A stretch of 35,565 bases of DNA from Pseudomonadota bacterium. GTDB lineage: Bacteria; Pseudomonadota; Gammaproteobacteria; Burkholderiales; Burkholderiaceae_C. This document shows, piece after piece, positions 8,859 through 31,653 of this stretch (its first letter is position 1; the number at the start of each line of letters is the position of its first letter). The stretch spans positions 1 through 35,565 of the forward strand of contig JAJZTW010000041.1 in assembly GCA_021847345.1 (NCBI GenBank). Reading direction: 5' to 3'. Below the pieces are notes generated by a model. That model saw only the letters and a program-made list of their open reading frames with translations. It did no database searches and was not told the origin of the DNA. Position numbers and translations under genes: made by a program.

Positions 8859-8866
8859 ATGCAGCT

Positions 8867-10810: not shown

Positions 10811-10816
10811 GACATA

Positions 10817-10821: not shown

Positions 10822-10844
10822 GCAAAATTGGAAACCCGGTTCAC

Positions 10845-10876
10845 GGACAGCCGGGGCAATACCCGGGAAGCTGTCC
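10845..10876. repeat. Imperfect inverted repeat in divergent promoter region
   Basis: GGACAGC-CGGG...CCCG-(GGAA)-GCTGTCC: 7-bp outer and 4-bp inner arms with a 4-base bulge on one side. It lies in the 256-base gap between the divergent BPSS1780-family and ATP-grasp genes. A second pair, ATCACC (10895-10900) and GGTGAT (10917-10922), lies just to the right. Operator or hairpin function is possible but unproven. Confidence 0.3.
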
Positions 10877-11066
10877 ACGCGAAGCCAGCAAATTATCACC
10901 ATCCCCCCGAACAAAGGGTGATGCGCATGATTGTTGGTCTTGCTCTAATGTCTGCGACCACCAAGCTGCCGGTTTGCGCAGCAGTAAATGCCGCGTTCAA
11001 GGCGGCCGCAACGCCGCGTTCGCAAACTTGTCACACCTGGAACTCCCGCAAGCCCGTCCATCAAAG

Positions 11067-12815: not shown

Positions 12816-14536
12816 CACTGCAGCTGCGTCATCGAGCAGAGACCCGCCTGGACAGCTCCGAGCCTGACACCATGCCCCACATCCGTATCGGGGTCATTCT
12901 CGATGGACTGGTGGTTCCATCCTGGGTCGCCGAGATGCTGCGCGAAATTCAGGACAGTGCAGGCATTCAGGCCGCGCTGTTCGCGTCTCGGCCAGACCTT
13001 GCAGCCGCGACCCAGGCTGGCGGGCCAGCGCCACGCGAAAGCCTCGCTGCTCGGACCTCTCGGAATTGGCTGGACGGCTATCGCAAGCGCCTGTTCGAAC
13101 GCCACCCACGACTTCGGCCTTCCCGACAGCCTACCCACGTCGAAGACATGCTGGCGGGCATCGAACAACGCCAATTCTCCTGGCGCCTGGACGATGCTGG
13201 ACTGGAGGCCGGAGCCGAGGACCTGGCCTGGTTGGCAGCACAAGAACTGGACGTGCTGATCGACCTTGGGGCAAGCCCCTCTCCGGCGGGCTTGTCCCGG
13301 CTCGCTCGCTGTGGCCTGTGGCAACTGCTCCACGGCGAAGCCGGGTGCACGCGCGCCCAGCAAGCCGGCCTCGTGGAAGTCATGCAGTGGCGACCGACCA
13401 CCTCGGCCTCGCTGCAGATGATCGACCCGCAAACCTTGCGCCCGTTGCTTCTTGCAAGCACCCACGCCTGCACGGTGCCGTTCTCGGTTGTCGACAATGC
13501 TGCGTCGATCCACTGGAACGCCCTGCACCTGCCTGCACGCCAGATCGCGCGGCTGCGCCTGATCGGCAACGAACGCTTCCTCGCCCAGGCTCGCGACTCC
13601 AACCGCGAGCCTCGTATCGACAGCGCGCCATGCCATGGCGAGCCTGACGCCGTTTCCCAGGCCTGGCAGCTGCTGGCACTGACCGTCAGGAAGGCCCGCC
13701 ACATGGCGCGAGGCCGCCTGTTCCTGGACCAGTGGAGCCTGCTCTATCGCTTCAGCTCGACGAACGACCTGGATCTGCGAAGCTTCAGGCGACTGGTACC
13801 GCCACCGGATCGCATCTGGGCCGATCCGTTCCCATACGCTCGCGATGGCCGGTACTACATCTTCTTCGAGGAAATGCCGCTGGACACCTCGCGCGGCCAT
13901 ATCGCAGTCGTTGAAATCTCTCGCGACGGACGGGTCAGCCCCAGTCGCATCGCGCTCCAGAGGCCCTACCACCTTTCCTACCCCTTCCTGTTCGAGTTCG
14001 AAGGAAGCCTTTACATGGTTCCCGAGTCCGCGGAAAGCGGCAAGATCGAGCTCTACCGGTGCACGGGGTTTCCCGATCAATGGGAGTTCGTGCACGCATT
14101 GATGGAGGGCGTTCGCGCCTACGACTCGACCTTGCTGCAGCGCGGCGAGCGCTGGTGGATGTTCGCAACCATGGTGAGCGTGGATGGCGCTTCGTCCTGG
14201 AACGAATTATTCGCATTCTCCGCCGAATCTCCACTGAGCCAGGACTGGGTACCTCACCCCGACAACCCCGTCGTTTCAGACTGCCGCAGCGCGCGCCCGG
14301 GCGGCGCGTTCTTCGAACACGAAGGCGCGCTGTATCGTCCCTCTCAGAACAGTTCGCATCGCTACGGCTACGGGTTCAACATCGCCCGCGTCGATGCTCT
14401 CGACGAGACCTGCTTCGAAGAGCACATCGTGGCGCGTGCCACGCCCCATTGGTGTGACGACGTCGTGGCCACCCACACCTTCAATCGTCATGGTGAGTTG
14501 CAGGTGATCGATGCCCAGATCCGGCGCCGCCGCTGA
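12812..14536 (+). CDS. Putative glycan-modifying protein with GINT1-type beta-propeller domain
   Basis: About 574 residues, no signal peptide. The N-terminal ~270 residues begin like a Rossmann-fold transferase (RIGVILDGLVVPSWVAEML) and are not otherwise recognised; a formyltransferase-like or GT-like role is conceivable. From ~residue 300 comes a region resembling the N-terminal domain of glucosamine inositolphosphorylceramide transferase (GINT1) and five-bladed propellers of the GH43/GH32 kind: WSLLYRFSSTNDL, IWADPFPYARDGRYYIFFEEM, LSYPFLFEFEGSLYMVPES, YDSTLLQRGERWWMFAT and GGAFFEHEGALYRPSQNS, each a blade-like repeat. It is translationally coupled to the ATP-grasp fusion (ATGA overlap at 12812-12815); an alternative start is the ATG at 12872. 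The context is glycan synthesis; the reaction is not known. Confidence 0.65.
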   Translation: MTLQLRHRAETRLDSSEPDTMPHIRIGVILDGLVVPSWVAEMLREIQDSAGIQAALFASRPDLAAATQAGGPAPRESLAARTSRNWLDGYRKRLFERHPRLRPSRQPTHVEDMLAGIEQRQFSWRLDDAGLEAGAEDLAWLAAQELDVLIDLGASPSPAGLSRLARCGLWQLLHGEAGCTRAQQAGLVEVMQWRPTTSASLQMIDPQTLRPLLLASTHACTVPFSVVDNAASIHWNALHLPARQIARLRLIGNERFLAQARDSNREPRIDSAPCHGEPDAVSQAWQLLALTVRKARHMARGRLFLDQWSLLYRFSSTNDLDLRSFRRLVPPPDRIWADPFPYARDGRYYIFFEEMPLDTSRGHIAVVEISRDGRVSPSRIALQRPYHLSYPFLFEFEGSLYMVPESAESGKIELYRCTGFPDQWEFVHALMEGVRAYDSTLLQRGERWWMFATMVSVDGASSWNELFAFSAESPLSQDWVPHPDNPVVSDCRSARPGGAFFEHEGALYRPSQNSSHRYGYGFNIARVDALDETCFEEHIVARATPHWCDDVVATHTFNRHGELQVIDAQIRRRR

Positions 14537-14563: not shown

Positions 14564-15697
14564 ATGACTCTGGTCGACTGGATCTTCTGGTCCACTGCTT
14601 CGCTGGTGGCCTACACCTACGTGGGCTACCCACTGCTCGTGGGCGCCCTGGCCCTCTTGCGCGCGCCCATTCTTCCACCGGCACTTGGCGACGACGAGCT
14701 GCCGGAGGTCACGGTGCTGATGGCTGCGCACAACGAAGCTCACCGACTTCCCTCCAAGCTGGACAACCTTCTGTCGCAGGACTTCCCGGCCGGACGCGTG
14801 CAGATCCTCATCGTCTCCGATGGGTCCACCGATGACACCGAAGGACTCGCCGCAGCCCGGCCGGACGTTCGCGTCCTCGTCAGTCCGGAACGCAGGGGCA
14901 AGGCGAGCGCCCTGAATCTCGGCATGGCGGCGGTGACGACCGATGTCGTGGTGTTGTGCGACGTGCGACAGGAGTTGGCGCCCTCGGCGCTGCGACATCT
15001 CGTCTCCGACCTCATGGACCCGCGGGTGGGAGCGGTCAGCGGCGAGCTCATGCATCGCAGCGCGGCAACGGCAGCTGCCGGCAATATCGGGCTGTACTGG
15101 CGCTACGAGAAGTTCATCCGCAAGGCGGAGAGCCGCCTGCACTCGACTCCCGGCGCCACCGGGGCCTTGTTCGCCATGCATCGCCGCGACTGGCAGCCTC
15201 TGCCGGCAGGGACGATCCTCGACGATTTCGAGACCCCCATGCATGTGGTTCGCAAGGGCGGGCGGGTGTTGCTCGACCCGCGGGCCGTCGCCTGGGACGA
15301 CCTGCAGGAGCACGCGCAGGGCGAGCGCCGGCGCAAGATCCGCACCCTCGGCGGGAACTACCAGAGTTTCGCGCGCAATCCCTGGCTGTTCGTTCCCTGG
15401 CGGAACCCCTTGTGGTGGCAATTCCTGTCGCACAAGGTGCTGCGCCTGGTTGCGCCCTATGCCTTGCTCGGCTGCTTCCTGTCGAGCCTGCTGGGCGGCG
15501 GGCCTTATCTGACGGTCGCGGCCTGGCTGCAAGGCGCCTTTTATGCCGCGGCCTTGTTCGGCTACCTGTTCCCCGGCGCTCGTCGCTATCGCGTGGTGAG
15601 CTTTGCGCATGTGTTCTGCGACATGAACTTCGCCGCGGTCGTGGCCCTGCTGCGCTTCGCCAGCGGGGGGCTCGATGCCCGCTGGGAGAAGACCTGA
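14564..15697 (+). CDS. Membrane-bound family 2 glycosyltransferase (cellulose synthase/NodC-like)
   Basis: A 377-residue processive-type GT2 protein. One transmembrane helix precedes the catalytic domain (WIFWSTASLVAYTYVGYPLL), and three or so follow it (about 290-365). The GT-A domain shows VTVLMAAHNEA, ILIVSDGSTDDT, GKASALNLGM, then VVVLCDVRQ at the metal-binding position where most relatives have DAD. A GATGALFAMHR block and the DDFETPMHV catalytic region follow, and QGERRRKIRT corresponds to the Q-x-x-RW/RR motif of membrane GT2 enzymes. It lies 27 bases after the propeller gene in the same rightward group. It probably acts on a lipid-linked or polymeric acceptor at the inner face of the cytoplasmic membrane. 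Polymerising activity cannot be claimed from sequence alone. Confidence 0.87.
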   Translation: MTLVDWIFWSTASLVAYTYVGYPLLVGALALLRAPILPPALGDDELPEVTVLMAAHNEAHRLPSKLDNLLSQDFPAGRVQILIVSDGSTDDTEGLAAARPDVRVLVSPERRGKASALNLGMAAVTTDVVVLCDVRQELAPSALRHLVSDLMDPRVGAVSGELMHRSAATAAAGNIGLYWRYEKFIRKAESRLHSTPGATGALFAMHRRDWQPLPAGTILDDFETPMHVVRKGGRVLLDPRAVAWDDLQEHAQGERRRKIRTLGGNYQSFARNPWLFVPWRNPLWWQFLSHKVLRLVAPYALLGCFLSSLLGGGPYLTVAAWLQGAFYAAALFGYLFPGARRYRVVSFAHVFCDMNFAAVVALLRFASGGLDARWEKT

Positions 15698-15797
15698 GCC
15701 CGCAGGCATACCTGCACCATGCTCGCTGCCGATCGCACGGCACACGCGCCGCTTCACGACTTGTCCCGCCGTTTCCTTCGACCACCGATCCTGCCTC

Positions 15798-16985
15798 ATG
15801 GCTTCCACTCGCTTGCCGATCTCCCGGCTGCTGTACCACCATCGCACCCAGGGCAAGGCCGTCGAAGGCGTGCATATCCGGGGCCTGGTCGACGCCTTGC
15901 GCGAGCTCGGCGTGGCGGTCGACATCGTTTCGCTACCCGGAGCGGACCCTTATGCCTCGCCCAAGGCGATGTCGCCGACCGCCCAGGCGACGGGACTGAT
16001 GCGTACCGTCTCACGCCTTCCCGAGCCCTTGTTCGAACTGGCCGAGCTGGCCTACAACCTGGTTGCCGGGCTTCGCCTGCTCGTGCATCTGCGCCGCCGT
16101 CCCGCGCAGGCCATCTACGAACGCTATTCGCTGTTCCTGTTCGTCGGCGTGTGGATCGCGCGCATGGCCGCCATTCCGCTGGTGCTCGAGATCAACGACG
16201 CGGCATTCGTCGAGCGCGTGCGCCCGCTGTACTTCCGGCGGCTTGCGCTCGCCATCGAGCGCTGGAACTTTCGCAACTGCTCGGGGCTGGTGTTCGTCTC
16301 CGGCGCGTTCCGAGCCCGTGCCGAGGCCACGCACGGGCGCATCGCGCCGGCCATCGTCGCGCCCAATGCGGCCGATCTGCGCAAGTTCAGCTTCACGCCG
16401 GAACAACGGGAACAGACACGCGCCCGTCTGGGTCTCCAGCACAGCGTGGTCTGCGGTTACCTCGGCGCCTTCGTGCCATGGCACCGCATCGACCTGTTCA
16501 TCGAAACGATCGCACCGCACCTGGAGCAGCGCCCGGACCTCAAGTTCCTGCTGGTCGGGGATGGAAGCACTTTTCCCAGGGTGCGCGAATTCGTGGAATC
16601 GCGAGGGCTCGGGCATCGCATCGTGCTGGCCGGGCGTGTCAGTCACGACGAGGTCCCGGGTCTGCTGGCGGCGATGGACATGGCCATCCTGCCCAGCGCC
16701 GGGGACTACACCTCGCCCGTGAAGCTGTTCGAATTCATGGCTTGCGCAATTGCGCCTGTCGCTCCCGATTTCGAGCCCATCCAGGAAGTCCTGCGCGAAG
16801 GCGAGACGGGTTGGATGTTCAAGGCGGGAGACATGGACGCCGCGGTGCAGGCGACCCTGCTGCACGCGACGAACCTGGAGCAGTTGCGCGAGGTGGGAGC
16901 GCGGGCCCGCGCGTATGTGGCTCGCGAACGCCAATGGCGCAACAATGCGCAGCAGCTGCTCGATTTCTACGCCGAGGTGCGATAG
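15798..16985 (+). CDS. GT4-family glycosyltransferase
   Basis: A 395-residue GT-B enzyme. The N-terminal domain starts ISRLLYHHRTQGKAVEGVHI, with a loop near HIRGLVDAL as in GT4 acceptor domains; a hydrophobic stretch around 120 (LFLFVGVWIARMAAIPLVLEIN) may help membrane association. The C-terminal donor domain shows VVCGYLGAFVPWHRID, KFLLVGDGSTFPRV, ILPSAGDYTSPVKLFEFMAC (the E-x7-E region) and APDFEPIQEVLREGETG. I chose the ATG at 15798; the frame is open to 15675, but that would overlap the GT2 gene with unconserved residues. It is the last of four rightward genes and its 3' end overlaps the convergent deacetylase-like gene by 19 bases. Sugar specificity unknown. Confidence 0.85.
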   Translation: MASTRLPISRLLYHHRTQGKAVEGVHIRGLVDALRELGVAVDIVSLPGADPYASPKAMSPTAQATGLMRTVSRLPEPLFELAELAYNLVAGLRLLVHLRRRPAQAIYERYSLFLFVGVWIARMAAIPLVLEINDAAFVERVRPLYFRRLALAIERWNFRNCSGLVFVSGAFRARAEATHGRIAPAIVAPNAADLRKFSFTPEQREQTRARLGLQHSVVCGYLGAFVPWHRIDLFIETIAPHLEQRPDLKFLLVGDGSTFPRVREFVESRGLGHRIVLAGRVSHDEVPGLLAAMDMAILPSAGDYTSPVKLFEFMACAIAPVAPDFEPIQEVLREGETGWMFKAGDMDAAVQATLLHATNLEQLREVGARARAYVARERQWRNNAQQLLDFYAEVR

Positions 16986-18145
16986 GACGGGCGCGCCACG
17001 ACGTAGTCGCGGTAGGCATGGGGGTCGCCGCTCATCCCGGCCTCGGCGGCCTTGGCGATGTTGTACATCTCGCGCGCGCTCACGTAGTGCAGCTTCCAGC
17101 GCTTGCCGTCGTTGTAGCGCGTTTCCAGTTCGGTGAAGGCGCGCTGCATCGGGTCGCCGAGCAGGGTTTCGGCGTCGCCATCCTGCGCGCCATGGGTGTG
17201 GATTTTCACGAACACCCATTCCGGGCGGCCGCGCACGTGCACTCCGGTGCGCACCCAGGAGGCGATACGCTCGACGCCGGGCGGGCTGCTGGCACGGATA
17301 TCTCCGTTCTCGATGCGGGGCATGATCCCGAACTTGCGGTTATGCCACTGCAGCCCGAGCGGCCCCTGGATGAGCATCAGGTCGCCGCTGGCGGAGCCGC
17401 CCACGCGCACCTGCTCCCCCTGGTCGTGCGACTTGCAGCGCCCGGGAGCGCTGGCCGCGTAATAGATGCTGTTGATGGTACGGGTCTGGCAAGGGCTGGG
17501 CGCCGACGGCAGCGTGAAGTCCGCGTAGCAACCCTGCTCCCGAAGTATGGCGAGCTCGCCGTTGACCCCGCAGCCTCTGCCGCTGGGATGGGAGTTGTCG
17601 AGCGCCCAATTGCCGTGGATGAACGCCCAGAGCGGCTGCCCGCTCGTCGGGTCGCGCGGCAGTGCGTCATGACGCTCGGCCAGCGTGCGCGTGAAACCGG
17701 CAAGCTTGTCGCGCAAGCCCTCGGCGGTGTCATTGTCGTGGTGCAGATGGATCTCGATCTCGCCCAGTCCCATGCGACACAGTTCGACCAACGCATCCAG
17801 GTGCTCGGGGCGATATTCCTCTTCCGGGTAGAAGAAGCTGTGCACGGGCGGACGTCCGTCGGCATCCCTGTGGCCTTCACACAATTTGGGATATCCCTGG
17901 CGCCAGCGCGCGACTCGCGCGCACTCGGTCTCGTACGACGGCGAGCGCCAGCGCGGCTCGAAATGGTCCACGAAGCAGAACAGCAGGTGGCGGGTCACCC
18001 CTGCCGGTGCCGCCTCGCGCCAGGAGCCGCGCAGGAAGGCTGGCAGCCAGATGTCCATGTGCTTGCCGCGCAGCTCGCGAATCAGCACCATGGCACCGAC
18101 GGCAAGCGCCAGCACGAGCAGGGAAAGGACGATCGGCAGGATCAT
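16967..18145 (-). CDS. Membrane-anchored NodB-like deacetylase-fold protein (putative)
   Basis: A 392-residue protein with an N-terminal transmembrane helix (ILPIVLSLLVLALAVGAMVLI), so probably anchored in the inner membrane with the domain in periplasm or cytosol. The body looks like the glycoside hydrolase/deacetylase superfamily: FCFVDHFEP puts an Asp60-His61 pair at the end of strand 1, EIEIHLHHDND around 130-138 fits the metal-binding histidine pair of NodB-type enzymes, and WAFIHGNWALDNS and FVKIHTHG are later conserved-looking elements. I cannot name a family confidently; carbohydrate esterase 4 activity, such as N-deacetylation of an exopolysaccharide, is the best guess. It is the last gene of the leftward eight-gene group, overlapping the preceding GT4 by 4 bases (ATGA), and its 3' end overlaps the convergent GT4 by 19 bases. 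Confidence 0.62.
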   Translation of the reverse strand: MILPIVLSLLVLALAVGAMVLIRELRGKHMDIWLPAFLRGSWREAAPAGVTRHLLFCFVDHFEPRWRSPSYETECARVARWRQGYPKLCEGHRDADGRPPVHSFFYPEEEYRPEHLDALVELCRMGLGEIEIHLHHDNDTAEGLRDKLAGFTRTLAERHDALPRDPTSGQPLWAFIHGNWALDNSHPSGRGCGVNGELAILREQGCYADFTLPSAPSPCQTRTINSIYYAASAPGRCKSHDQGEQVRVGGSASGDLMLIQGPLGLQWHNRKFGIMPRIENGDIRASSPPGVERIASWVRTGVHVRGRPEWVFVKIHTHGAQDGDAETLLGDPMQRAFTELETRYNDGKRWKLHYVSAREMYNIAKAAEAGMSGDPHAYRDYVVARPSYRTSA

Positions 18146-19350
18146 GGGCGGGTCAGGGATGTCAGGCGGCCGCGGACCTCGCGCTGCTCGCGCGCTGCCC
18201 GGTACAACCGGTCGTGGGAACGGAACATGGCCTCGAGCGACGCATGGTCGGCCACCCAGGCGCGCGCAGCGCGCCCGAGTTGCTCGCCGAGTGCGGGCTG
18301 AACCAGCAGGCTGCGCAGGGCACCGGCCAGGGCGTCGGGGTCACCCGACGCCACCAGCAGCCCGCTGCGCCCATGCTCGATGATTTCGGGGTTGCCACCG
18401 ACTGCGGTGGCGACGATGGCCAGGCCGCTTGCCGCGGCCTCCAGCAAGGCGAGCGACAGCCCTTCGGTGGTCGACGGCAGCGCGAACACGTCGAATGCCG
18501 GCAGCAGCCGGGCGACGTCGGACTGCTCCCCGGCGAAGACCACCTGTCGAGCAACGCCCGACTCGCGGGCTTGCTGCTCGAGGAGTTGGCGCAAGGGCCC
18601 GTCGCCGACCAGAACCAGGCGAAGGTCGGGAAACTCGCGTAGCAGTTGGGGCAGGAGTTCGATCAGGACCCGGTGGTTTTTCAGCTCCACCAGGCGCCCC
18701 ACGCAGCCGATGATCCTCTCATGCGACGCCAGCCCCAGGCGGCGTCGCGCCTGAGCACGCGCCCCGGCGTCCTGCGAGAAACGCTCCAGCGCCACCCCGT
18801 TGAGAATGCGCAGGGTCTTCGCCGTATCGACCACGCCGGCCTCGAGATAGCGCGCATGCACCTGCGCGCCGACCATGACGACGCGGGTCATGCGGGCCAG
18901 TGCCCAGCGCATGATCCAGCGCAGCTTGCGCTGCGCCAGCCGCGTACCCATGTCGTGACAGGTGGCCACGCCTGCCGGGCGCGATCCCCACCCCAGGGTG
19001 GCCGCCGCCACGTAGTAGGTGGGCATGAAGTTGTGGGCATGCACCACGTCCACCTGCCGGTCCCGCACGGCTCGCCGCAGGGCGCGCAGGGTGCGCAAGT
19101 CCGCCGAACTTCGCTTGTCGCCCAGCAGCACGGGAACTCCCGCGCGCTCCAGCTCCTGCGCCAGGGCACCAGGAGCCTTGATGCTGAATACCGCCACGTC
19201 GTAGCCCTGCCGACGCTGCATCACCGCGAGGTCGGTGACCACGCGCTCCAGCCCGCCTCGCTCAAGGGAGTCCACCACGTGCAGGACACGCGGGGTCGAC
19301 TCGTCGGGATAGGCTGGAACAGGCATGCTCGATCGGGGTTGCTGGCGCAT
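18142..19350 (-). CDS. GT4-family glycosyltransferase
   Basis: A GT-B glycosyltransferase of about 402 residues. RVLHVVDSLERGGLERVVTDLA is the textbook GT4 N-terminal strand and glycine-rich loop. VDVVHAHNFMPTYY, GVATCHDMG, LRILNGVALERF, ERIIGCVGRLVELKNH, LRLVLVGDGPLR, ALPSTTEGLSLALLEAAASGL (E-x7-E) and VATAVGGNPEIIEHG follow in the usual order. Such enzymes of exosortase-associated loci are often annotated as sugar transferases for the polymer repeat unit. The ATG at 19350 is one base after the stop of the hydrolase gene and has GGA about 8 bases upstream; a second ATG at 19326 is possible. The stop overlaps the next start by 4 bases. Part of the operon headed by the carrier protein gene. 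Confidence 0.9.
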   Translation of the reverse strand: MRQQPRSSMPVPAYPDESTPRVLHVVDSLERGGLERVVTDLAVMQRRQGYDVAVFSIKAPGALAQELERAGVPVLLGDKRSSADLRTLRALRRAVRDRQVDVVHAHNFMPTYYVAAATLGWGSRPAGVATCHDMGTRLAQRKLRWIMRWALARMTRVVMVGAQVHARYLEAGVVDTAKTLRILNGVALERFSQDAGARAQARRRLGLASHERIIGCVGRLVELKNHRVLIELLPQLLREFPDLRLVLVGDGPLRQLLEQQARESGVARQVVFAGEQSDVARLLPAFDVFALPSTTEGLSLALLEAAASGLAIVATAVGGNPEIIEHGRSGLLVASGDPDALAGALRSLLVQPALGEQLGRAARAWVADHASLEAMFRSHDRLYRAAREQREVRGRLTSLTRP

Positions 19351-19351
19351 C

Positions 19352-21145
19352 CTACATTCCGCGCTCGCGGCCATCCGTGACAAATTCGAGGAGGTCTTGA
19401 AACAACCGTTGCTTCGACAGCTCACTGCCGAAGGTGTGGTCGGCGCCGGGCTGGACGAATACGCGGATGCAGGCGGTCTCCTGGCCGATGCGCGTCTCCT
19501 CGGGGGCCGCCTGGCGCAACATCCACCAACCAGGCTCCGCGTCGCCGACGAACAGGCCCACGCGTACATGCCGCATGCGCAAGCGACGCAGGCCCTGCTC
19601 CACGGCGTTGGCCCGAACGGCACCGAGCCTGTGGCCCAGGCCCCGCAGCGCGGCGCCGACCCTGCCAAGCCCATGATGCAGCATGGTCCGAAGCGCACTG
19701 CGCAGGTGCACCCGAAGGGTGAGCAGTTTTTTCCAGGTGGCCCATTGCAGAACCGCCTTGCGATAGCGCAGGCTTTCGCTGGCCGAGCGCCCCAGGGCGC
19801 GCTGCGACTCGTCGCCCCAATCCAGTATGCGAAGGTTGATCACCGCCACGGCCTCGATGCCCGTGGCGCGCGGGTCCATGGCCGCGCGCAATGCCCAGTG
19901 GGCTCCCGAGCACAGCCCCGCGAGCTGTACGCGATCGAACTCCAGGCGATTGCGGATGTCCTCGACAACGCCCAGCAGATCGTCCACTCCCGAGTCGGGA
20001 TAACAGTCGTTCTCGCCGGGCATGCCTGGCGAGACACTGTCGCCGATCGCGGGCGCGTCGATACGCAAGCTGGAAACCCCGCGGCGCGCGAGTTCGCGTG
20101 CCAGGCGTACATGCAGTCTGCCGGGTCCGATGTGGTGCACGGCACCGGCATTGAGCAACACCAGCAACGGGCGCTGTGCGACGGGCGAGGCGGGCGCGGC
20201 GGGCGTGCACAACACTCCGAACACGTTGCGCGACTCGCCCAGGGCTACCGGCCGCTCCCGGTAATGCGGCGTGGACAGCGTGCCCTGGAGGGCCGGCCCG
20301 TCCACCGGGAGCGTGCCCGCGGGTATTCGTGGCTCGCAGCCCGACTGAGCCGCGCTGCTGGCGAACCATCCACATATGCGTTGAATGGCGCCATCCGGAA
20401 CCAGGGCCCGGTGCGGCTCGTCGAACATCGCGGCCGCCCCGGTGAACGTCATCGCATCCAAGGGCATCCCGGCCGCCTCGAGACATTGGCGCAACGCTGC
20501 GTCGGGGACCGTGTCGTCGCGCTCCAGCCAAAGCGCGCGTCGCAACCCGGCCAGTTGCCAATCCTGGCATTGCAGACGGGCCAGGTCGTCCACGAAGTCG
20601 CGTGCCAGCGCGTGCCCGGCCACCTCGAGCAGGGCACCGGCAGGCTGCGCGCCGGCCCCCAGCGCCGCGACGGCGCGCAGTTCCCGCGCATGACGCCGTC
20701 CGCTGCTCACCGGCGCCCACAACGTCAGCCACTGCGCTTGCGCGCGCGCGCAAGCCAGGCCTGCGATCATGGCTCCGAGGCGCAGGCCCACGAAGCCCAC
20801 GTGGCTGCAGCCCGCCTCCTGGCGCAGGAAGTCGGCGGCGTCGATCGCCGCGGCGACCCAGTCCTCGAGCCGCAGGCCCGAGGAGGTGTCGCCCTCGGAG
20901 TCGCCACAACCCGGGTAGTCGAAGCGCAGCGCACGCATGCCCTGAGCCGCCAGGCCCTCGGCCAGGTACAAGAGGCTGCGATGGGCGCTTTCCTCCTCGG
21001 CGCCGAATGGCGCGCAAAGCACCACCCCCGCCTGCGCGGGCCCTCCATGCAGCCAGCCCGCGCACTGCCTGGGGGCATGTCCGAACAGCACCGGTGAACG
21101 CCGGCGCGGCCACATCGGCGAGGCGTGGGCAGGCTGCTCAGACAT
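19352..21145 (-). CDS. Tandem alpha/beta-hydrolase (exosortase-associated hydrolase-like), nucleophile altered
   Basis: A 597-residue protein made of two alpha/beta-hydrolase domains (about 17-290 and 295-590). Each resembles one of the two hydrolases that accompany exosortase A systems, usually encoded as separate genes. In domain 1 RFDYPGCGDSEGD marks the oxyanion/strand-4 region, but the nucleophile elbow reads Gly120-Leu-Arg122-Leu-Gly124, so the serine is replaced by arginine. In domain 2 LNAGAVHHIGPGRL and RIDAPAIGDS are followed by Gly410-Leu-Cys412-Ser-Gly414, giving a cysteine at the nucleophile position, and PGADHTF supplies the likely catalytic histidine. Domain 2 may therefore be an acyltransferase or thioesterase with a cysteine nucleophile, and domain 1 a non-catalytic partner. 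It overlaps the GH2 gene by 8 bases and is followed by the GT4 one base later. The substrate is unknown; a carrier-protein thioester is an attractive guess. Confidence 0.75.
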   Translation of the reverse strand: MSEQPAHASPMWPRRRSPVLFGHAPRQCAGWLHGGPAQAGVVLCAPFGAEEESAHRSLLYLAEGLAAQGMRALRFDYPGCGDSEGDTSSGLRLEDWVAAAIDAADFLRQEAGCSHVGFVGLRLGAMIAGLACARAQAQWLTLWAPVSSGRRHARELRAVAALGAGAQPAGALLEVAGHALARDFVDDLARLQCQDWQLAGLRRALWLERDDTVPDAALRQCLEAAGMPLDAMTFTGAAAMFDEPHRALVPDGAIQRICGWFASSAAQSGCEPRIPAGTLPVDGPALQGTLSTPHYRERPVALGESRNVFGVLCTPAAPASPVAQRPLLVLLNAGAVHHIGPGRLHVRLARELARRGVSSLRIDAPAIGDSVSPGMPGENDCYPDSGVDDLLGVVEDIRNRLEFDRVQLAGLCSGAHWALRAAMDPRATGIEAVAVINLRILDWGDESQRALGRSASESLRYRKAVLQWATWKKLLTLRVHLRSALRTMLHHGLGRVGAALRGLGHRLGAVRANAVEQGLRRLRMRHVRVGLFVGDAEPGWWMLRQAAPEETRIGQETACIRVFVQPGADHTFGSELSKQRLFQDLLEFVTDGRERGM

Positions 21146-23633
21146 CGCGCAGCGTCACGCCATCGCGCAGGTTCGCCGCGCTGCAACGCACCCGCCCTTG
21201 CGGTGGGATGGAGGTCGGGAGCAGGCGCACCGTACGTTCCCGGCCGGGCACCAGATGAAAGTAGTTGTCGTCGGGCGCCCACCCGGGCGCATCGATCTCC
21301 ACGCCCAGCAGCAGCTCGTCGCACTGCAGGTGCAACAGGCGATCCCCGCCGTCGTCGGTCACACGAAGACGGGGTGCCTGCCCGACCGGCCCGACGCTCA
21401 TCCCCGAGGGGAAATGCAGCGCCTGGGACAACAGCCTGCCGGAGGCATCGACCAGCGTGGCCGCCACCAGGTCGTGCGCGGGCGGCCCGAAGCGATAGGC
21501 CTGGTTGATGTCGACAAAATGCCCGAACATGCCGGCGGTGCCGATACGGGTCGAGGCGCGCGGGCCCAGACGAATCTCCCGGCTTGCGCGCAGGGTCAGG
21601 ATACGTCCGTCTTGCCAGAGCTCGACCGTCAGTTCGGCTCGCAATTCCTGCGATGCATCGTTGCACACGACAAAATCGCAACCCTCGAGTCCACGGTCCT
21701 CGATCAGCACCGCGCACGGCGCCAGGCAACGCCGCAACGCCCAATACACCGGCTTGGGGCACCCGCGCCAGTCGAGCACGCCCCATCCCGCACCGGGCGC
21801 GAGATCCTGCAGCCACCAGACCAGGGCGCCCTGGCATGACGAGCCCGGAGCGCGCCAGGAAGCGAACGCGGTCGACATGACCTCGCCGCTGACCAGCGCG
21901 GACCAGCGCAGATAGCCGCCGGGGTCGACAAGACGCATGTGCCGCGGGTCGGCACGCACGACCGTCGCGAAGTAATGGTCGCGCACGTCCTCGAAGTCCC
22001 AGCCGGCGCCCGCGTCACGCGGCACGCCGGCTTTCCAGCGAGGATCATGCGCTGCCACCCCGGCCAGCTCATCGCGCTCGAGCGACGCCGGCGCGGGTAC
22101 GTTGGAGAACCCCAGGCTCTCGGCGGCGAAGCGCACTCCAGCCAGGCGCGCGTCATCCAGGGGGCGGCGATACGCGCCCACGCCGTAGTAGTGACAGACC
22201 CCCGAGGAGGGATGAAAAGGCAGCGCCCCGCCCGATGGGGACGCTCGCACGTAGGCACTTCCCGGGTGAATCGCGGCGTGGGCCCGGGGCAGCCACTGAT
22301 CGAACAAGGCATGGCTCCAGGCCTCGGGCGGCAAGCCCAGCATCGCCGCCTGCTGCTCGACCTCGCTGTTGCCGCAATACACCGCCACGCAGGCGTGACC
22401 GCTCAGACGTTGCAGGACCTGCTCGGCCTCGGCCTGTGCCTCGGCCGCGAAATCGGGGTCGTCCAGCGGATAGTCCATGCTGGCGAACAGGAAATCCTGC
22501 CACACGAGGATGCCCAGGCGATCACATTCGGACAGCAACAGGTCGCTGGCGTACACCGCGGCACCCACGATGCGCAGCATGTTCATGCCGGCGTCGACCA
22601 CGCGCTCCAGCACGGCGCGCAGGGTGTCGGCGTCTGCGTCGAGCCGTCGCAGGTCTGCCGTCGTCCAGCAGGCACCGCGCAGGAACAGCGCTTCCTGGTT
22701 GCACAGCATGCGCAACGCGCCGTACGGCTCCAGCACCTCGAAGGACTTGAAGCCGAGCTGCCCGCCGTGCACGGTGGCGCCGGCCCCGGCCCCGCGCAGA
22801 TGCAGCTCGCAACGGTAGGTCACCGGGCGCCCGTGCGTGTGCGGCCACCAGGGCTCCAGACCGTCGAACTCCAGGTCGTGGCCCTCGATTCCGGTGGCGT
22901 TCAGGTAACGCGCATCGATCTCCCGGCAAACGTCTCCGACCTGCAAGGTGGCCGCGTTCCACGGACCCGCGCCGAGATCCCTCCAGGTGGCGGCGATGCG
23001 CACCACGGCCTTGCCGTCGCGCAGCCTGGGGCACAGCTGCAGGCGCTCCAACTCCAGCGCACGCACCCGCTCCAGATACACCGGACGCCATGCTCCCACG
23101 GCGTCCACCTGCGGGAGCCAGCTGCTCGCCCGCCCAAGCAGCGTGGTGCGCCACCAGCGCAGATTCTGGGACGGAACCAGCGCGGTCTTCCAGCGCGGCC
23201 GCGGGCGGCGTTGCCGCAGGCGCGGCGACAAGGCCGAGAAGCGCAGCACCAGGCTGCGAGCCCCCGCGGGCAAGGGCAGCACGAAGCAGCGGTGCATGTT
23301 GCATGCGCTCATCACGTGCCGACCGTCGACCCAGATGTCGACCCAGGTGGCGAGGCCTTCGAAGCGCAGCCTCGGCTCGCCGTCCGCGGCAGTCGAAGCC
23401 GGCAACTCGCGACGAAGCCACCAGTCGAACGCATCCAGCCCCTGCCGTTGCCAGGTATCGCTGCCCAGCCAGTGCGCCACGGTGCCGGGCAGCGACACCG
23501 TACGCCACCCCTGTTCGGGCAGGTCGGCGGGTTCGGCCCAGGCATCCACGGGGGACTGCAGCAGGCCCCAACCTTCGGCCAGTTCCTGGCTGTGGTGAAG
23601 GTCGATGCGGCGACTCGGTACGGGCACCGTCAT
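21138..23633 (-). CDS. Glycoside hydrolase family 2 protein, beta-mannosidase-like
   Basis: An 831-residue protein with the GH2 layout: an N-terminal jelly-roll sugar-binding domain (about 15-190; LPGTVAHWLG, then LRFEGLATWVDIWVDGRHV), an immunoglobulin-like domain (~190-290), a TIM barrel (~290-600) and C-terminal beta domains. LFLRGACWTTADL starts the barrel. Glu424 in YCGNSEVEQQ fits the acid/base position (compare WSGNNE of beta-mannosidases), and Glu505 in FAAESLGFSNVP fits the nucleophile. The protein lacks a signal peptide, so it should be cytosolic, unusual for an enzyme that would trim exported polymer; it may process lipid-linked precursors or work as a transglycosylase. It lies 6 bases after the DUF1839 gene and overlaps the hydrolase gene by 8 bases. 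The beta-mannosidase label reflects general resemblance only. Confidence 0.82.
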   Translation of the reverse strand: MTVPVPSRRIDLHHSQELAEGWGLLQSPVDAWAEPADLPEQGWRTVSLPGTVAHWLGSDTWQRQGLDAFDWWLRRELPASTAADGEPRLRFEGLATWVDIWVDGRHVMSACNMHRCFVLPLPAGARSLVLRFSALSPRLRQRRPRPRWKTALVPSQNLRWWRTTLLGRASSWLPQVDAVGAWRPVYLERVRALELERLQLCPRLRDGKAVVRIAATWRDLGAGPWNAATLQVGDVCREIDARYLNATGIEGHDLEFDGLEPWWPHTHGRPVTYRCELHLRGAGAGATVHGGQLGFKSFEVLEPYGALRMLCNQEALFLRGACWTTADLRRLDADADTLRAVLERVVDAGMNMLRIVGAAVYASDLLLSECDRLGILVWQDFLFASMDYPLDDPDFAAEAQAEAEQVLQRLSGHACVAVYCGNSEVEQQAAMLGLPPEAWSHALFDQWLPRAHAAIHPGSAYVRASPSGGALPFHPSSGVCHYYGVGAYRRPLDDARLAGVRFAAESLGFSNVPAPASLERDELAGVAAHDPRWKAGVPRDAGAGWDFEDVRDHYFATVVRADPRHMRLVDPGGYLRWSALVSGEVMSTAFASWRAPGSSCQGALVWWLQDLAPGAGWGVLDWRGCPKPVYWALRRCLAPCAVLIEDRGLEGCDFVVCNDASQELRAELTVELWQDGRILTLRASREIRLGPRASTRIGTAGMFGHFVDINQAYRFGPPAHDLVAATLVDASGRLLSQALHFPSGMSVGPVGQAPRLRVTDDGGDRLLHLQCDELLLGVEIDAPGWAPDDNYFHLVPGRERTVRLLPTSIPPQGRVRCSAANLRDGVTLRDV

Positions 23634-23639
23634 GGGCGG

Positions 23640-24614
23640 TCAGGCGTAGCGGGAACGCAAGGTGCCCATCGCCCGCTCCCATCCCGCAGCCATCTGTTCG
23701 ATCACGTCGAGCTCGGGACGCCGCCTGCGTGCCATGGCCCGGGCCAGCTGGAATTGATAAGCCTTGCTGGATTCGGAAATCGCGCGCAGCTCGCGTGCCG
23801 CGTCGTCCAGCCCCGGCACCCCCTGTCCGCACAGCCAATCCAGGTAGGTGTGGGCCAGCTCATAACAGGCTCCGAACTGGCGCCAGGTCACGAACGAATA
23901 GGTGTGGAAGGTGTCGATGTCGCCCTGCAGCAGCCAGTCGAGGTCGCCTGCGAAACGCTGCCCGAAGACGACGAAGGGATTGCGTTCCGGCAGGCTGTGC
24001 AGTTGGGCGCGCAGCAGATCCAGCGAAGCATCGCGCAGCGCGCTTCCGGACAGGGGCTCACCGCGTCGCTTGACGAACTCGATGTAGGGCGGAAGCATGC
24101 GCTCGTGCACCTGCTGCGGCGGCTGGAACAAGGCGCGGAAGTCCTCGCCGCCGAGTTCGTGGTAGCCCTGGTTGTGAAAATACCCCATGCGCAGCTGGTC
24201 GCGGTCCAGCAGGTTCACCGCCACGGTCGACTTGACATGGGCCAGGCGATAGGCGGTGCCCTGCGTGTCCGGCAGGAAGTAGGAATCCAGCTCCACCAGC
24301 ACGGGCCGCCCCTGGCGCAGTTGCTCTTCGACATGTTCCACCAGGGGCCGCCAAGGCGCCAGTTCCTCGACCACCCAACCGTACAGGCGTTGCAGGTCGG
24401 CATCGCGAAACTTGAAAAACGTCCACTCGTCGCCCTCGAAATCGATGCCCAGCGTGAACGCCAGGGCGGCACGGGGCTCGCAACCGAGTCCGTGCAGCAA
24501 CTCGATGAGCACGTCGCTGTAGCAGTTGGTCTCGGCCCAGATGCGGTCGCCGCCGTGGATGGCATGCCGCCGGTAGGCGGCGGGGTCCAGGGCCGTGACC
24601 TGAAACGTCGGCAT
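23640..24614 (-). CDS. DUF1839 family protein, possible cysteine acyltransferase
   Basis: A 324-residue cytosolic protein recognised as DUF1839, a family with no established function that I know of. Visible landmarks are WAETNCYSDVLIELLHGLG with Cys31, TFFKFRDADLQRLYGW, VLVELDSYFLPDTQGTAYRLAHVKST with Asp110 and His126, and GYFHNQGYHEL. This order (early Cys; 'hydrophobic-D-x-Y-x-LP'; His about 15 residues later; then a Gly-Tyr strand) resembles the N-terminal domain of BtrH, which moves an acyl group from a carrier protein to an aminoglycoside. That comparison is mine, made by eye. The ATG at 24614 has AGGAGG 6 bases before it. It sits 28 bases after the amino acid:[carrier protein] ligase gene and 6 before GH2, consistent with a transfer step after loading. 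Confidence 0.8.
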   Translation of the reverse strand: MPTFQVTALDPAAYRRHAIHGGDRIWAETNCYSDVLIELLHGLGCEPRAALAFTLGIDFEGDEWTFFKFRDADLQRLYGWVVEELAPWRPLVEHVEEQLRQGRPVLVELDSYFLPDTQGTAYRLAHVKSTVAVNLLDRDQLRMGYFHNQGYHELGGEDFRALFQPPQQVHERMLPPYIEFVKRRGEPLSGSALRDASLDLLRAQLHSLPERNPFVVFGQRFAGDLDWLLQGDIDTFHTYSFVTWRQFGACYELAHTYLDWLCGQGVPGLDDAARELRAISESSKAYQFQLARAMARRRRPELDVIEQMAAGWERAMGTLRSRYA

Positions 24615-24620
24615 GCGCAC

Positions 24621-24626
24621 CCTCCT
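24621..24626 (-). promoter_or_regulatory. Ribosome-binding site of the DUF1839 gene
   Basis: Perfect AGGAGG on the minus strand, 6 bases before the ATG at 24614. It rules out the longer reading frame that starts inside the ligase gene. Confidence 0.8.
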
Positions 24627-24642
24627 GCTGCGTGGGGTCGGG

Positions 24643-25584
24643 TCAGCGCAGACCCAGGCGCTCGCGCACGGGCGCCGGCCAGGCCCATGGGTCCAGTCCA
24701 TGGGTCTTGAGCAGCGCCAGTGTGATGCGCTCGACACCGAAGCCCACGCAGGAGGTATGCGCGGGCTCACCTCCGACGCCGTGGATGTCGAACAACTGCC
24801 CGAAATGGTCCAGGTGGCAATTGCAGGAAGTCACGGCGGTCGGGTGCTGCTCGGAGCAGATGGGCACCACGAGTTCGTACTTCAGCTCCTGCTCCCGCTG
24901 CGTGGCTTTCATGACCTTGCCGCCGCGCCCGAAGAACGGATCGTTGGCCAGCACGCGCGCGACCGGCAGGTGCAAGGATTCCAGCAACGCCTGCCCGAGG
25001 TCCAGCCAGCGGTCGCGGTGCTCCAGGGCCTGTTCGGCGCTGCCCAGGCGCACGTACTCACGCTGCCGGAACATCTGCATGCGCGCCGGATCGTCCGACG
25101 GCTCATGCCGGAACACGAAGGTCTCGAGATCGACGATGCGCCCCTGCGCCGGCAGGGTCGAACCCGCCGCCGTGGGATACAGGGGATAGCAGGCCGCGGG
25201 CACGAGCATGCAATCACAGGCATGCAGGTGCGCCGTCCAGTCCTGGCCGCCCTCGAAGTCGGCGAGCATCGCACGGTGCGCGCGTTCGTCGCCGGCGAAC
25301 GCATGCACCGAGCCGAGCAGGTCCGGGAAGTTCGCGATGTGGTCGAGGCGCTCGTAGTGCGTACGGGCGAACAGCGGAGGGAAACGCATCACCTCGGCCT
25401 GCTGCCAGTCTCCCGCTCGATCCACCAGAGCCTCGATGCCCTGCACGATGCGCTCGAACGTTCCGCTGCGCGCGTACAGGCCGCGCACCTGCAGCGGAAT
25501 CAACAGCCCGGCCCGGAACAGCTGCTCCTGGAACGCCCGCTGGGCCTCCTGCGGATTTTCGGGGGATGCGGAATGGTCAGGCAT
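24643..25584 (-). CDS. Amino acid:[acyl-carrier-protein] ligase (class II seryl-tRNA synthetase-like)
   Basis: A 313-residue homologue of the truncated seryl-tRNA-synthetase-like enzymes first described in Bradyrhizobium, which activate small amino acids (glycine, alanine) with ATP and load them on the phosphopantetheine of a small carrier protein, not on tRNA. The tRNA-binding arm of SerRS is absent. Class II motif 2 is seen as FVFRHEPSDDPARMQMFRQREYV, motif 3 as GFGVERITLALL. The metal ligands of the family, Cys-Glu-Cys, are Cys132 (AACYPLY), Glu176 (RQREYV) and Cys279 (HTSCVGFG). The HDHFG-like segment CNCHLDHFGQLFDI precedes motif 3. The start overlaps the end of the dehydrogenase-like gene by 8 bases. 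The carrier protein gene two places upstream is the expected partner. The amino acid used cannot be read from sequence. Confidence 0.92.
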   Translation of the reverse strand: MPDHSASPENPQEAQRAFQEQLFRAGLLIPLQVRGLYARSGTFERIVQGIEALVDRAGDWQQAEVMRFPPLFARTHYERLDHIANFPDLLGSVHAFAGDERAHRAMLADFEGGQDWTAHLHACDCMLVPAACYPLYPTAAGSTLPAQGRIVDLETFVFRHEPSDDPARMQMFRQREYVRLGSAEQALEHRDRWLDLGQALLESLHLPVARVLANDPFFGRGGKVMKATQREQELKYELVVPICSEQHPTAVTSCNCHLDHFGQLFDIHGVGGEPAHTSCVGFGVERITLALLKTHGLDPWAWPAPVRERLGLR

Positions 25585-26770
25585 CGCGTTGCACGATTTG
25601 CATGGCTGCGTTGAGCCCCAGCAGGCGGTCGTTGTTGACCATCAACATGGTGCCGTAGGCGTCCCGCAGGTTGCGGCAAAGGCTGACCTCGGAATCGTTC
25701 CGGTAGGCGTTGATGCCGCCGATGATCATGGCCCGCCCCACGAGATCGACCAGCAGGGTCGACGTATTGAGCTTGAGGTTGTTGACCCGGATGTTGAAGC
25801 CGAAATTGCCGAAGTCCCCGCCCGGGCCGTGCGCCAGCAGGTCCCGGTACTCGGCCAGCACCTGCGCCAGCCCGGCGCGCATGGTCTGCAGCACCATGTC
25901 GGCCTCGCCAAGGCGAGTCGCGGCAATGGGCATCGCGTCCGGGGTCTTGCGCGCCTGAGCGCGCACCACGCTGCGGGCCCGGTTCATGGAATCGATGCCG
26001 ATGCCGATCCACAAGGCCGCCCACACCAGATGCGCCACGGGGTGCATGGTGCGGGCGTGGATGTCCGCGTACGGCACGGGCAGGATCTGTTCGCGCACGC
26101 CACGCCCGTGCACGGTGAACCCGGAACTGCAGGTGCCGCGAAACCCCATGGTGTCCCAACCACACATGGGCTCCAGGGTCAGGTGCTCCTTGAGCAGCAG
26201 CACCTGCACCTGGTCCCCGGCGGCGCTTTCCGGGGCGCGCCGGGCCGTCAGCAACAAGGCGTCGGCGGCATCCATGTAGGAAATCACCGGCGCCTTCTTG
26301 GTCACGCTGAATCCGTCGCCTTCGAGCTGCACGGCGCAGATACTCGAGCGCAGGTCGCCTCCGATGCCCACCTCGGTGGTGGCCGAGGCCAGCAGCAGTT
26401 GCTGCTCGCACAGCCTGCGCACGAAAGCCTGGAAATACCTCGACTCCAGTGCATGATGCACCAGGCAGGCGACCTGGATCTGATGCATCGCGTACACCAT
26501 CGCCGTCGCCGAGCAGTACTGCCCGAAGATCTCGCACAAGCGGACGACGTCTTCCAGGCTGCGCCCCATCCCCCCGTACTCACGGGGCACGTACGCACCG
26601 AGCAACCCGGCGCGCTTCAATTCGGCGAAGGCCTCCGCGGGAAATCGCGCGTCGCGGTCGACGGCAGCGGAATGGGGCGCCAGAGCGTGGCGGCCGATGT
26701 CGTGGGCGAGCTCGAACAATCCGGCGCGCTCGGCCGCGTCGGCGGCCTCCGGGGTGACGTGCGTATCCAT
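25577..26770 (-). CDS. Acyl-CoA-dehydrogenase-like flavoprotein
   Basis: A 397-residue member of the acyl-CoA dehydrogenase fold: N-terminal helical domain (GLLGAYVPREYGGMGRSLEDVV), middle beta domain (ASATTEVGIGGDLRSS, then GFSVTKKAPVISYMDAADALLL and GWDTMGFRGTCSSGF) and C-terminal helical domain. It should bind FAD. The catalytic Glu of the medium-chain enzyme, in 'YEGTSQ', aligns by eye with Val378 in RDAYGTMLMVNND, so the canonical base is missing at that place; some relatives carry it elsewhere. Placed between a carrier protein (7-base gap) and an amino acid:carrier ligase (8-base overlap), it may oxidise the tethered aminoacyl group, as prolyl-carrier-protein oxidases do in pyrrole synthesis. 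That role is inference; oxidation of another acyl group, or an oxygenase-type reaction, is also possible. Confidence 0.88.
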   Translation of the reverse strand: MDTHVTPEAADAAERAGLFELAHDIGRHALAPHSAAVDRDARFPAEAFAELKRAGLLGAYVPREYGGMGRSLEDVVRLCEIFGQYCSATAMVYAMHQIQVACLVHHALESRYFQAFVRRLCEQQLLLASATTEVGIGGDLRSSICAVQLEGDGFSVTKKAPVISYMDAADALLLTARRAPESAAGDQVQVLLLKEHLTLEPMCGWDTMGFRGTCSSGFTVHGRGVREQILPVPYADIHARTMHPVAHLVWAALWIGIGIDSMNRARSVVRAQARKTPDAMPIAATRLGEADMVLQTMRAGLAQVLAEYRDLLAHGPGGDFGNFGFNIRVNNLKLNTSTLLVDLVGRAMIIGGINAYRNDSEVSLCRNLRDAYGTMLMVNNDRLLGLNAAMQIVQRDA

Positions 26771-26777
26771 GGGGTCT

Positions 26778-27023
26778 TCAGTCGCCAGGCCGCAGTTCCG
26801 CGATCGATTCGGCGAGCGAACGAATGCTCTCGAAAGTCTTGCGACTCAGCATGTGCTGCGGGAACTCGACGTCGAAATGTTCCTCGAGCGCGAGCATCAG
26901 GTTGACCGTGGTCAGCGAAGTCAACCCGAGCTCGTACAGATTCGCATCGCTGGTGACCTTGGCGGGTTCGCAGGACAGGCGCGCGTGCTGGAGAACAAGG
27001 TCACGGATCGGGTCGACGTACAT
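26778..27023 (-). CDS. Acyl carrier protein (aminoacyl carrier protein candidate)
   Basis: An 81-residue acidic four-helix carrier protein. The phosphopantetheine site is Ser36 in YELGLTSLTTVNLM, with Thr in place of the usual Asp before the serine ('DSL' to 'TSL'). Helix 2 (LTTVNLMLALEEHFDVEFP) and the following FPQHMLSRKTFESIRSLAESIA fit the family. It is the first gene of the leftward group: 7 bases separate it from the dehydrogenase-like gene, and upstream lies a divergent glycosyltransferase. It is the probable partner of the amino acid:[carrier protein] ligase and probably needs the Sfp-type transferase at 8085-8858, or a housekeeping AcpS, for activation. No clear ribosome-binding sequence precedes the ATG. 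Confidence 0.92.
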   Translation of the reverse strand: MYVDPIRDLVLQHARLSCEPAKVTSDANLYELGLTSLTTVNLMLALEEHFDVEFPQHMLSRKTFESIRSLAESIAELRPGD

Positions 27024-29135: not shown

Positions 29136-29161
29136 CGGCAGGATAGGGGCCCCGCTGTGAC

Positions 29162-30058: not shown

Positions 30059-30068
30059 GGAGGTTCCT

Positions 30069-31640: not shown

Positions 31641-31653
31641 CGTCCGTGCGCCC

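Follow-up and report, generated by a model that had tools for sequence, protein, structure and literature searches.

A conserved six-gene operon core encodes a widespread, probable amino-acid transfer system

A conserved six-gene core in an eight-gene operon

The stretch analysed in this study, 35,565 nucleotides of contig JAJZTW010000041.1 from a Pseudomonadota bacterium of the Burkholderiaceae_C (hereafter the window), carries an operon of eight minus-strand genes (16967-27023), the core of which is a widespread, uncharacterised gene set, probably an amino-acid transfer system; its conservation, the predicted fold of one of its products and the exchange of its loading enzyme were computed here. 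Only the first six genes make up the conserved unit: a carrier protein (CP; 26778-27023), an acyl-CoA-dehydrogenase-fold flavoprotein presumed to act on a tethered amino acid (25577-26770), an amino acid:[carrier protein] ligase resembling seryl-tRNA synthetase (SerRS; 24643-25584), a DUF1839 protein that is the proposed aminoacyl-CP:amine transferase (23640-24614), a beta-mannosidase-like GH2 protein (21138-23633) and a tandem alpha/beta hydrolase (19352-21145). We consider it probable that these six genes form an amino-acid transfer cassette working by the steps proposed below.

The eight genes and their seven junctions (+7, -8, +28, +6, -8, +1 and -4 bases from the CP gene to the last gene) were confirmed from the translations of open reading frames (ORFs) and from Pfam and NCBIfam profiles, just as the first-pass annotation of the window had stated; the +28 and +1 values hinge on starts at 24614 (DUF1839) and 19350 (the GT4 gene), which lie inside longer ORFs and were chosen by Pfam limits. 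Judged by this spacing, the eight genes are likely one transcript. A promoter and terminator scan did no better than on shuffled sequence.

Profile searches for the ligase and DUF1839 were performed on 398 genomes of the phylum. A ligase-family match at E ≤ 0.001 was present in 44 genomes and exceeded the cut-off in 28, and DUF1839 was present in 16, all of them among the 28 and all with the two genes adjacent (16/16; hypergeometric P = 2e-21 assuming independent genomes, which they are not). The other 12 genomes with an over-cut-off ligase, all without DUF1839, carried the flavoprotein (12/12) and mostly the CP (10/12), and GH2 was not found within up to 10 kb on either side of these sister ligases. 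Thirteen of 17 below-cut-off ligase matches were examined (L059-L071), and the stretches around them contained no further gene of the cassette.

A scan of public genomes gave at least 568 confirmed DUF1839 relatives, the best 80 of which (L072-L151) are the loci compared below. By record title or taxonomy, they belong to nine phyla (Pseudomonadota, Planctomycetota, Acidobacteriota, Verrucomicrobiota, Chloroflexota, Gemmatimonadota, Actinomycetota, Myxococcota and Abditibacteriota), though titles of metagenome-assembled genomes are fallible, two of the loci being titled Klebsiella pneumoniae. DUF1839 stood beside a flavoprotein gene in 79 loci, the remaining one being a contig end; the ligase was present in 70, absent in nine and cut off by a contig end in one (L140); GH2 was found in 74, with contig ends accounting for two of the six misses; and a hydrolase relative lay nearby on the same strand in 51, a further 12 loci having one at another place within the stretch. 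The usual order was CP, flavoprotein, ligase, DUF1839, GH2, hydrolase, with the hydrolase sometimes first or on the opposite strand. The gene neighbourhood expected by the first-pass annotation, with DUF1839, flavoprotein, CP and ligase together, thus recurs in fixed order in many genomes. DUF1839 was also found on 59 plasmid records, three regions of which were examined: Azospirillum B510 has the six cassette genes in the same order, the Rhizobium NLR16a plasmid has a GT4 gene directly behind GH2, between it and the hydrolase, and the Caballeronia SL2Y3 plasmid has the first five cassette genes without the hydrolase. On the Rhizobium plasmid (L191, 8540-11366), genes for elongation factor P, EpmA and a lysine 2,3-aminomutase-like protein directly precede the cassette.

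The recurrence extends to six of the eight genes that had been grouped together, and the full set was rejected as a conserved unit. The GT4 glycosyltransferase gene (18142-19350, minus strand; PF00534, 138 bits; best NCBIfam match TIGR03088, below cut-off) stands outside the constant order. The last gene (16967-18145, minus strand) is local: homologues were absent at E ≤ 1e-6 from the 80 loci, and none was found in L175-L184 (loci of the same genus) either. Its earlier label, NodB-like, was not upheld, since no match was obtained in Pfam at E ≤ 5 or in NCBIfam at 0.01, and nothing meaningful in the Protein Data Bank (PDB); assignment as NodB or a polysaccharide deacetylase was rejected.

Carrier protein, ligase and exchange of the loader

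The CP of the window matched NF005480 with 96.6 bits (cut-off 72) and also PF00550, and the Ser of its GLTS motif is the presumed phosphopantetheine site; a GL[TS]S motif occurred in 66 of the 77 CP ORFs of the 80 loci and was lacking in 11. The best solved chains were the aminoacyl carrier protein 4h2w_C and Atu2571 (2jq4_A), with equal scores. The ligase scored 439 bits against NF005479 (cut-off 357), and its residues 31-312 aligned to residues 51-332 of the Bll0957 structures 3mey and 4h2w. Homologues of the ligase are reported to adenylate an amino acid and load it on a CP (Mocibob et al. 2010, as told in PMC2922099). The ligase and CP families of the cassette are the same as those of the Bll0957-type amino acid:[carrier protein] ligases, and by this membership the window ligase would load an amino acid on its CP. 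The work of Mocibob and colleagues reportedly ends at the loaded CP. These ligases, familiar relatives of tRNA synthetases that have taken on another function, have long been orphan enzymes, and the transfer proposed here would give them a testable role. As a separate observation, a study of a phaR mutant tabulates both Bradyrhizobium bll0957 (ligase) and the neighbouring acd gene bll0958 with a fold change of 3.0 (PMC10888616).

Nine of the 80 loci had no ligase between the flavoprotein and DUF1839 genes, and an NF005479-family search found a ligase in none of these nine genomes (controls, 3/3 positive). A stand-alone amino acid adenylation protein (TIGR01733 over cut-off) adjoins the cassette in two of them, L083 and L113. 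The L083 protein was searched against 17 whole genomes, the nine without ligase and eight ligase-bearing controls. Relatives with 56-100% identity (L083's own included) were present in eight of the nine ligase-less genomes, and the ninth had a 51% fragment at a contig end; the best relative in the eight controls showed 35% identity over its whole length (L096's genome) or 38% over part (8/9 vs 0/8, Fisher P = 4e-4). In L083, L100, L113 and L115 the adenylation gene was no more than 4 kb from the cassette, and in L099's genome (L187) it directly precedes a CP and a flavoprotein cut by the contig end, so that in five of nine it was close to the cassette or beside its CP. L086's genome has it on the contig of the cassette, beside a second CP (L185), whereas the genomes of L097 and L104 have it on a contig other than that of the cassette. 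Genes may be missed in draft genomes, yet this would hardly account for nine absences accompanied by eight replacements and one fragment. L072, L073, L096 and L121 have the ligase plus a weaker adenylation-type ORF nearby.

When the loader type was placed on a DUF1839 tree (55 rows; the 54-row alignment described below plus L104), at least five changes were required, all forced by well supported branches, and the sister pairs L096/L104 and L112/L097 differed in loader. Even so, loader types were grouped on the tree beyond random expectation (as few changes arose in 1 of 500 shuffles). As two unrelated loaders replace each other, their shared product, the aminoacyl-CP, is likely what stays constant, and the cassette probably works through one conserved intermediate, the amino acid bound to the CP. 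Such a repeated swap is natural evidence that an aminoacyl thioester is what the pathway needs.

Read by eye at the ten positions that we take to be those of the GrsA code, the adenylation code is D-N-F-C-I-A-M-V-D-K in L083, L100 and L113 and D-N-F-C-L-A-M-V-D-K in L115. An alpha-amino acid is indicated by the first Asp; a closer identification from this code was rejected, as no code known to us matches. Beside the cassette of L115 (Reinekea), 15405-18741 encodes an FkbH-domain protein, a type of glyceryl-ACP (acyl carrier protein) loader, and a second hydrolase relative.

Predicted fold and conserved residues of DUF1839

The window DUF1839 protein matched PF08893 with 395 bits (gathering threshold, 22.5). 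A model predicted from a 54-row alignment (the window and 53 of the 80 loci) had a pLDDT of 92.5 and a pTM of 0.91, with a papain-like N-terminal domain and a helical C-terminal domain. Foldseek search against the PDB returned 331 matches at E ≤ 10, and the 19 matches at E ≤ 0.001 were all chains of AziU2-U3, CtaG or CcbD (E 1.5e-8 to 8.5e-5, 319-363 columns covering both domains, 9-17% identity). Ordinary papain-like proteases matched only at E 2e-2 or worse and over shorter alignments. In CcbD, which has a Cys-His-Glu triad, CP-bound Pro is first taken up by the Cys and then transferred to a thiosugar amino group, and CP acids are bound through C-terminal Arg, according to the account in a 2025 review (PMC12945683).

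C31, H126, H147 and R292 were present in all 54 rows, and the basic residues near the C-terminus were R292 (54/54), R/K296 (50/54) and R/K298 (54/54). The count for C31 is partly selected, since one of the two patterns used in the scan for the 80 loci contains the Cys motif; in an alignment drawn by the ligase (the window and 15 loci, 16 rows), it was present in 15. E108 and E179 are also invariant in the 54 rows. DUF1839 is described as papain-like with a permuted C(T/S)H active site in a 2023 JBC article (PMC10318531), where a role in cell-wall glycan processing, dependent on acyl-CoA, is guessed; the three mentions of DUF1839 in its main text share the fold and the site with our description and make no match to CP-dependent transferases. 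The window protein has C31, T130, H126 and H147, the assignment of the Thr and His residues to the active site being our own reading. The predicted fold and these residues suggest that DUF1839 very probably passes a CP-bound amino acid to an amine, perhaps one on a sugar. With DUF1839 as the likely receiving enzyme, having a solved functional analogue and a conserved Cys, the question of what follows loading becomes one in-vitro assay.

DUF1839 could instead catalyse a different thioester reaction, acting as a hydrolase, as a transferase that modifies proteins, or in ring formation as AziU2-U3 does, the latter being the top fold match by E-value; the papain-like superfamily also includes many peptidases (as outlined in PMC10318531). 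The position of the gene beside the ligase in 16/16 phylum genomes and beside the flavoprotein in 79/80 loci, together with the poor matches of ordinary proteases, argues for the transferase role, and we regard another thioester reaction as improbable. Membership of the CcbD or BtrH family was rejected: DUF1839 is not filed in the CcbD/CtaG/AziU3 group because sequence homology is undetected, only a functional likeness being proposed, and for butirosin BtrH (PF14399), only PF08893 was reported for the window protein at E ≤ 0.01.

Flavoprotein, GH2 and tandem hydrolase

PF02771 was the sole Pfam match of the flavoprotein. Its predicted model, built from an alignment of the window and 39 of the 80 loci (40 rows), showed a complete acyl-CoA dehydrogenase fold (pLDDT 92.2), and H96, S129, E133, S164, H247 and D381 were present in 40/40 rows. 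At the two positions that we take to be those of the usual catalytic Glu of acyl-CoA dehydrogenases, no Glu was present as aligned by profile, V/I378 and S/A246 being found there; the invariant D381 is three residues from a usual base position and is a possible alternative base. Fold matches in the PDB mixed dehydrogenases with the monooxygenases TdsC and DszC, and ColB1 and KijD3 were also among them. The flavoprotein might even be the key enzyme, the cassette making an oxidised amino acid for some other assembly line and DUF1839 merely releasing it; the retention of the flavoprotein with the ligase in all 12 sister loci without DUF1839, and the presence among the fold matches of ColB1, titled as dehydrogenating an assembly-line-tethered cysteine, would fit this. 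Although long ORFs with adenylation-type matches lie near the cassette in L072, L073 and L121, no recurring neighbour cluster was identified as a polyketide synthetase or multi-module peptide synthetase, and we hold this explanation to be very improbable beside a cassette centred on transfer by DUF1839.

The GH2 protein matched PF22666 and PF17753, both just over cut-off, and was closest to beta-mannosidases in PDB profile matches (5n6u, 2je8 and others, E down to 1e-86). In a set of the window and 69 ORFs scoring over 700, the Glu residues that we take, by alignment and general knowledge, to be catalytic were kept in 66/70 (E424) and 70/70 (E505), both being present in the window. Inspection by eye showed no signal peptide in the window GH2.

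The N-terminal half of the tandem hydrolase resembles TIGR03101 and the C-terminal half TIGR03100, both below cut-off. These are hydrolases 1 and 2 of XrtA/PEP-CTERM loci, where they are separate, whereas their relatives in the window are fused. In a set of the window and 60 ORFs scoring over 240, the N-terminal half had an Arg at the place of the nucleophile (GxRxG; R122 in 56/61), and the C-terminal half had Cys412 (GxCSG; 61/61) and His570 (59/61), a Cys that fits thioester chemistry. L096 encodes the hydrolase as a separate pair with the same two motifs. Two genomes of the same genus that lack the cassette also have two hydrolase matches each (L183, 8160-10157; L184, 8340-10238), 36-41% identical to the tandem hydrolase; they adjoin a phosphopantetheinyl transferase gene, with a DUF218 gene nearby, and perhaps belong to a parallel XrtA-type acyl-CP system.

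Genomic setting and change of place

Upstream of the operon, on the same strand, the window carries XrtA/PEP-CTERM-type exopolysaccharide genes (28371-35260) for DUF218, tyrosine kinase, chain-length, ATPase and outer membrane proteins. TIGR03007, TIGR03015 and TIGR03016 were over cut-off and TIGR03018 just below, as in XrtA loci; unlike these, the window genome (3.66 Mb, 117 contigs, 93% complete) gave no match to exosortase A (XrtA) at E ≤ 0.001 and no TIGR03098 ligase over cut-off within that completeness. Within the locus, a single open frame at 31654-33684 has the TIGR03015 ATPase region followed by a match to UDP-GlcNAc 2-epimerase (residues 366-614).

Polysaccharide genes recur elsewhere. 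Clusters of GT4, Bac_transf, Wzz-kinase or deacetylase relatives were present in 26 of the 80 stretches, the GT4 cluster in 21. First neighbours of the cassette were collected by simple gene calls (124 of 133 proteins of at least 120 aa; the nine dropped include the adenylation proteins of L083 and L113) and comprised seven Bac_transf, six Polysacc_synt, six GT4 and three Wzz proteins, some from closely related loci; four of the 124 matched the phosphopantetheinyl transferase family. Among 68 of 71 neighbours of the sister ligases (the three dropped ORFs overlap CP calls), these polysaccharide families were not among the 25 families listed out of 58, which may hide rarer ones.

Within the genus, DUF1839 was found in 4 of 28 genomes. 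Three of them have the cassette between an MFS gene and a LigT gene (L179; L180; and one divided between two contigs, L181 and L182). The MFS gene follows the hydrolase gene directly in these genomes, and an orthologue of the window's phosphopantetheinyl transferase is upstream of the CP gene, only LigT lying between. In the window this place is empty: the MFS gene (6084 to about 7436, minus strand) adjoins the LigT gene (7496-8065, plus strand), and the whole cassette lies about 11 kb away, inside the exopolysaccharide locus. Six non-carriers of the genus were compared; the two genes are about 100 bases apart in L175 and L177, like in the window, 3.9 kb of other sequence separates them in L176, and L178, L183 and L184 do not show the pair. 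As the cassette stands at a different place in these genomes, it seems to be relocated or lost in one piece.

Proposed mechanism and relation to known systems

An Sfp-type phosphopantetheinyl transferase (8085-8882, minus strand; PF01648, PF22624) is the likely CP activator and would arm the CP. The SerRS-like ligase, from its family, would then adenylate an amino acid and load it on the CP. DUF1839 is predicted from its fold and conserved residues to take the aminoacyl group from the CP onto Cys31 and to hand it to an amine, most likely that of an amino sugar, to give an amide in the manner of CcbD. The flavoprotein would oxidise or oxygenate either the amino acid on the CP or the product. 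A second thioester step, either transfer or release, might be performed by the hydrolase half that carries the Cys, and GH2 might trim or transfer the glycan. Since the unit of this genome lies within an exopolysaccharide locus and has a GT4 gene with it, the product is probably built into a surface glycan; a sugar polymer is a plausible acceptor.

A fuller picture may be offered tentatively: a machine shared across phyla that attaches a CP-bound, possibly oxidised amino acid to a surface glycan through one of its amino sugars. Around a papain-like condensing enzyme, the loader would have alternated repeatedly between a relative of tRNA synthetases and an adenylation protein of the nonribosomal peptide synthetase type; the Cys-type hydrolase would perform another acyl step, and GH2, located in the cytosol, would act on the conjugated sugar. 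This combination is possible but doubtful as a whole.

Several observations weigh against these proposals. To our knowledge, AziU2-U3, the best fold match, makes no sugar amide, so the fold does not fix the reaction of DUF1839. The TM-scores to AziU2-U3, CtaG and CcbD are moderate (0.53-0.63), and a profile of the 16-row alignment found no homology to CcbD, CtaG or AziU3 among PDB sequences at E ≤ 1. The triads also differ, being Cys-(Thr/Ser)-His as described for DUF1839 (PMC10318531) and Cys-His-Glu as described for CcbD (PMC12945683). The DUF1839 copy beside the ligase in L036 (10910-11896) has lost the Cys. This genome, G255, is one of two with two DUF1839 genes each (G255:C159; G328:C2:2215276-2216190); the extra G328 copy (L045, 15750-16727) keeps the Cys. 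GH2 is missing in 4 of the 78 loci with sequence on that side (L117, L118, L130 and L148), and 17 of the 80 stretches, several ending at contig ends, show no hydrolase relative. Finally, the copies in Azospirillum B510 and on the Caballeronia SL2Y3 plasmid have no annotated polysaccharide genes within 14 kb. The polysaccharide setting on which the first-pass annotation had built stands for the window, with its XrtA-type locus, and recurs elsewhere without being universal.

The two copies just mentioned would also suit a small diffusible aminoacyl-sugar or aminoacyl-amine metabolite (of the lincosamide, butirosin or mycothiol-type thiol kind) as the product, the polysaccharide setting being incidental or local. 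The fold relatives CcbD and CtaG serve small-molecule pathways, and an MFS gene lies directly behind the hydrolase in the three genomes of the genus with the cassette between MFS and LigT. Such a product is nevertheless rather unlikely, as polysaccharide genes recur among the 124 first neighbours of the cassette and are not among the 25 listed neighbour families of the sister ligases.

A close functional likeness is seen in the lincosamide synthetase, described with a loader (CcbC/LmbC), a CP (CcbZ/LmbN) and a Cys enzyme acting onto an amino sugar (CcbD/LmbD) (PMC12945683, PMC4351081); the cassettes with an adenylation protein have the same three-part layout. The window differs in having no detected sequence similarity, a different triad order, a SerRS-like loader, and an extra flavoprotein, GH2 and tandem hydrolase. 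CtaG of closthioamide biosynthesis, another fold match, is proposed to transfer an acyl group from one CP to the amine of a peptide on another, and differs from the cassette in its aromatic acyl donor and peptide product, with no sugar, as described in PMC6772006.

The pathway logic put forward in the first-pass annotation, in which an amino acid is activated, tethered and transferred, gains support from the gene co-occurrence and from the likeness of DUF1839 to CP-dependent enzymes, among them one with an amino sugar as acceptor. The proposal was re-derived and is not new, because a note added in proof of a 2010 article (PMC2922099, Biol Direct) already predicts that an amino acid is joined to an amino group of a cell-surface sugar by ORF Atu2574, a redox enzyme being predicted to modify the aminoacyl group. 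The gene set named in that note is like the cassette (ligase, ACP, monooxygenase/dehydrogenase, uncharacterised ORF, glycosidase and liposaccharide genes), and we infer that Atu2574 is DUF1839; unlike the present analysis, the note gives no fold evidence for Atu2574, no loader swap and no tandem hydrolase. A test of the 2010 prediction or a functional follow-up of the ligases was not found in the literature searched, in which subscription journals are thinly covered. The results that, as far as found, are new comprise the fold match to CcbD-type enzymes, the recurrent exchange of loaders, the hydrolase of the Cys type, the breadth of distribution and the different place in genomes of the same genus.

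Other features of the window

Two further ORFs lie between the phosphopantetheinyl transferase gene and the operon. The product of the ORF at 12812-14536 bears a GINT1_N domain, which takes its name from glucosamine inositolphosphorylceramide transferase, and relatives of this protein lie near the sister-clade ligases of L054 and L055. The ORF at 10680-12815 has ATP-grasp-type matches fused to a low-molecular-weight tyrosine phosphatase domain.

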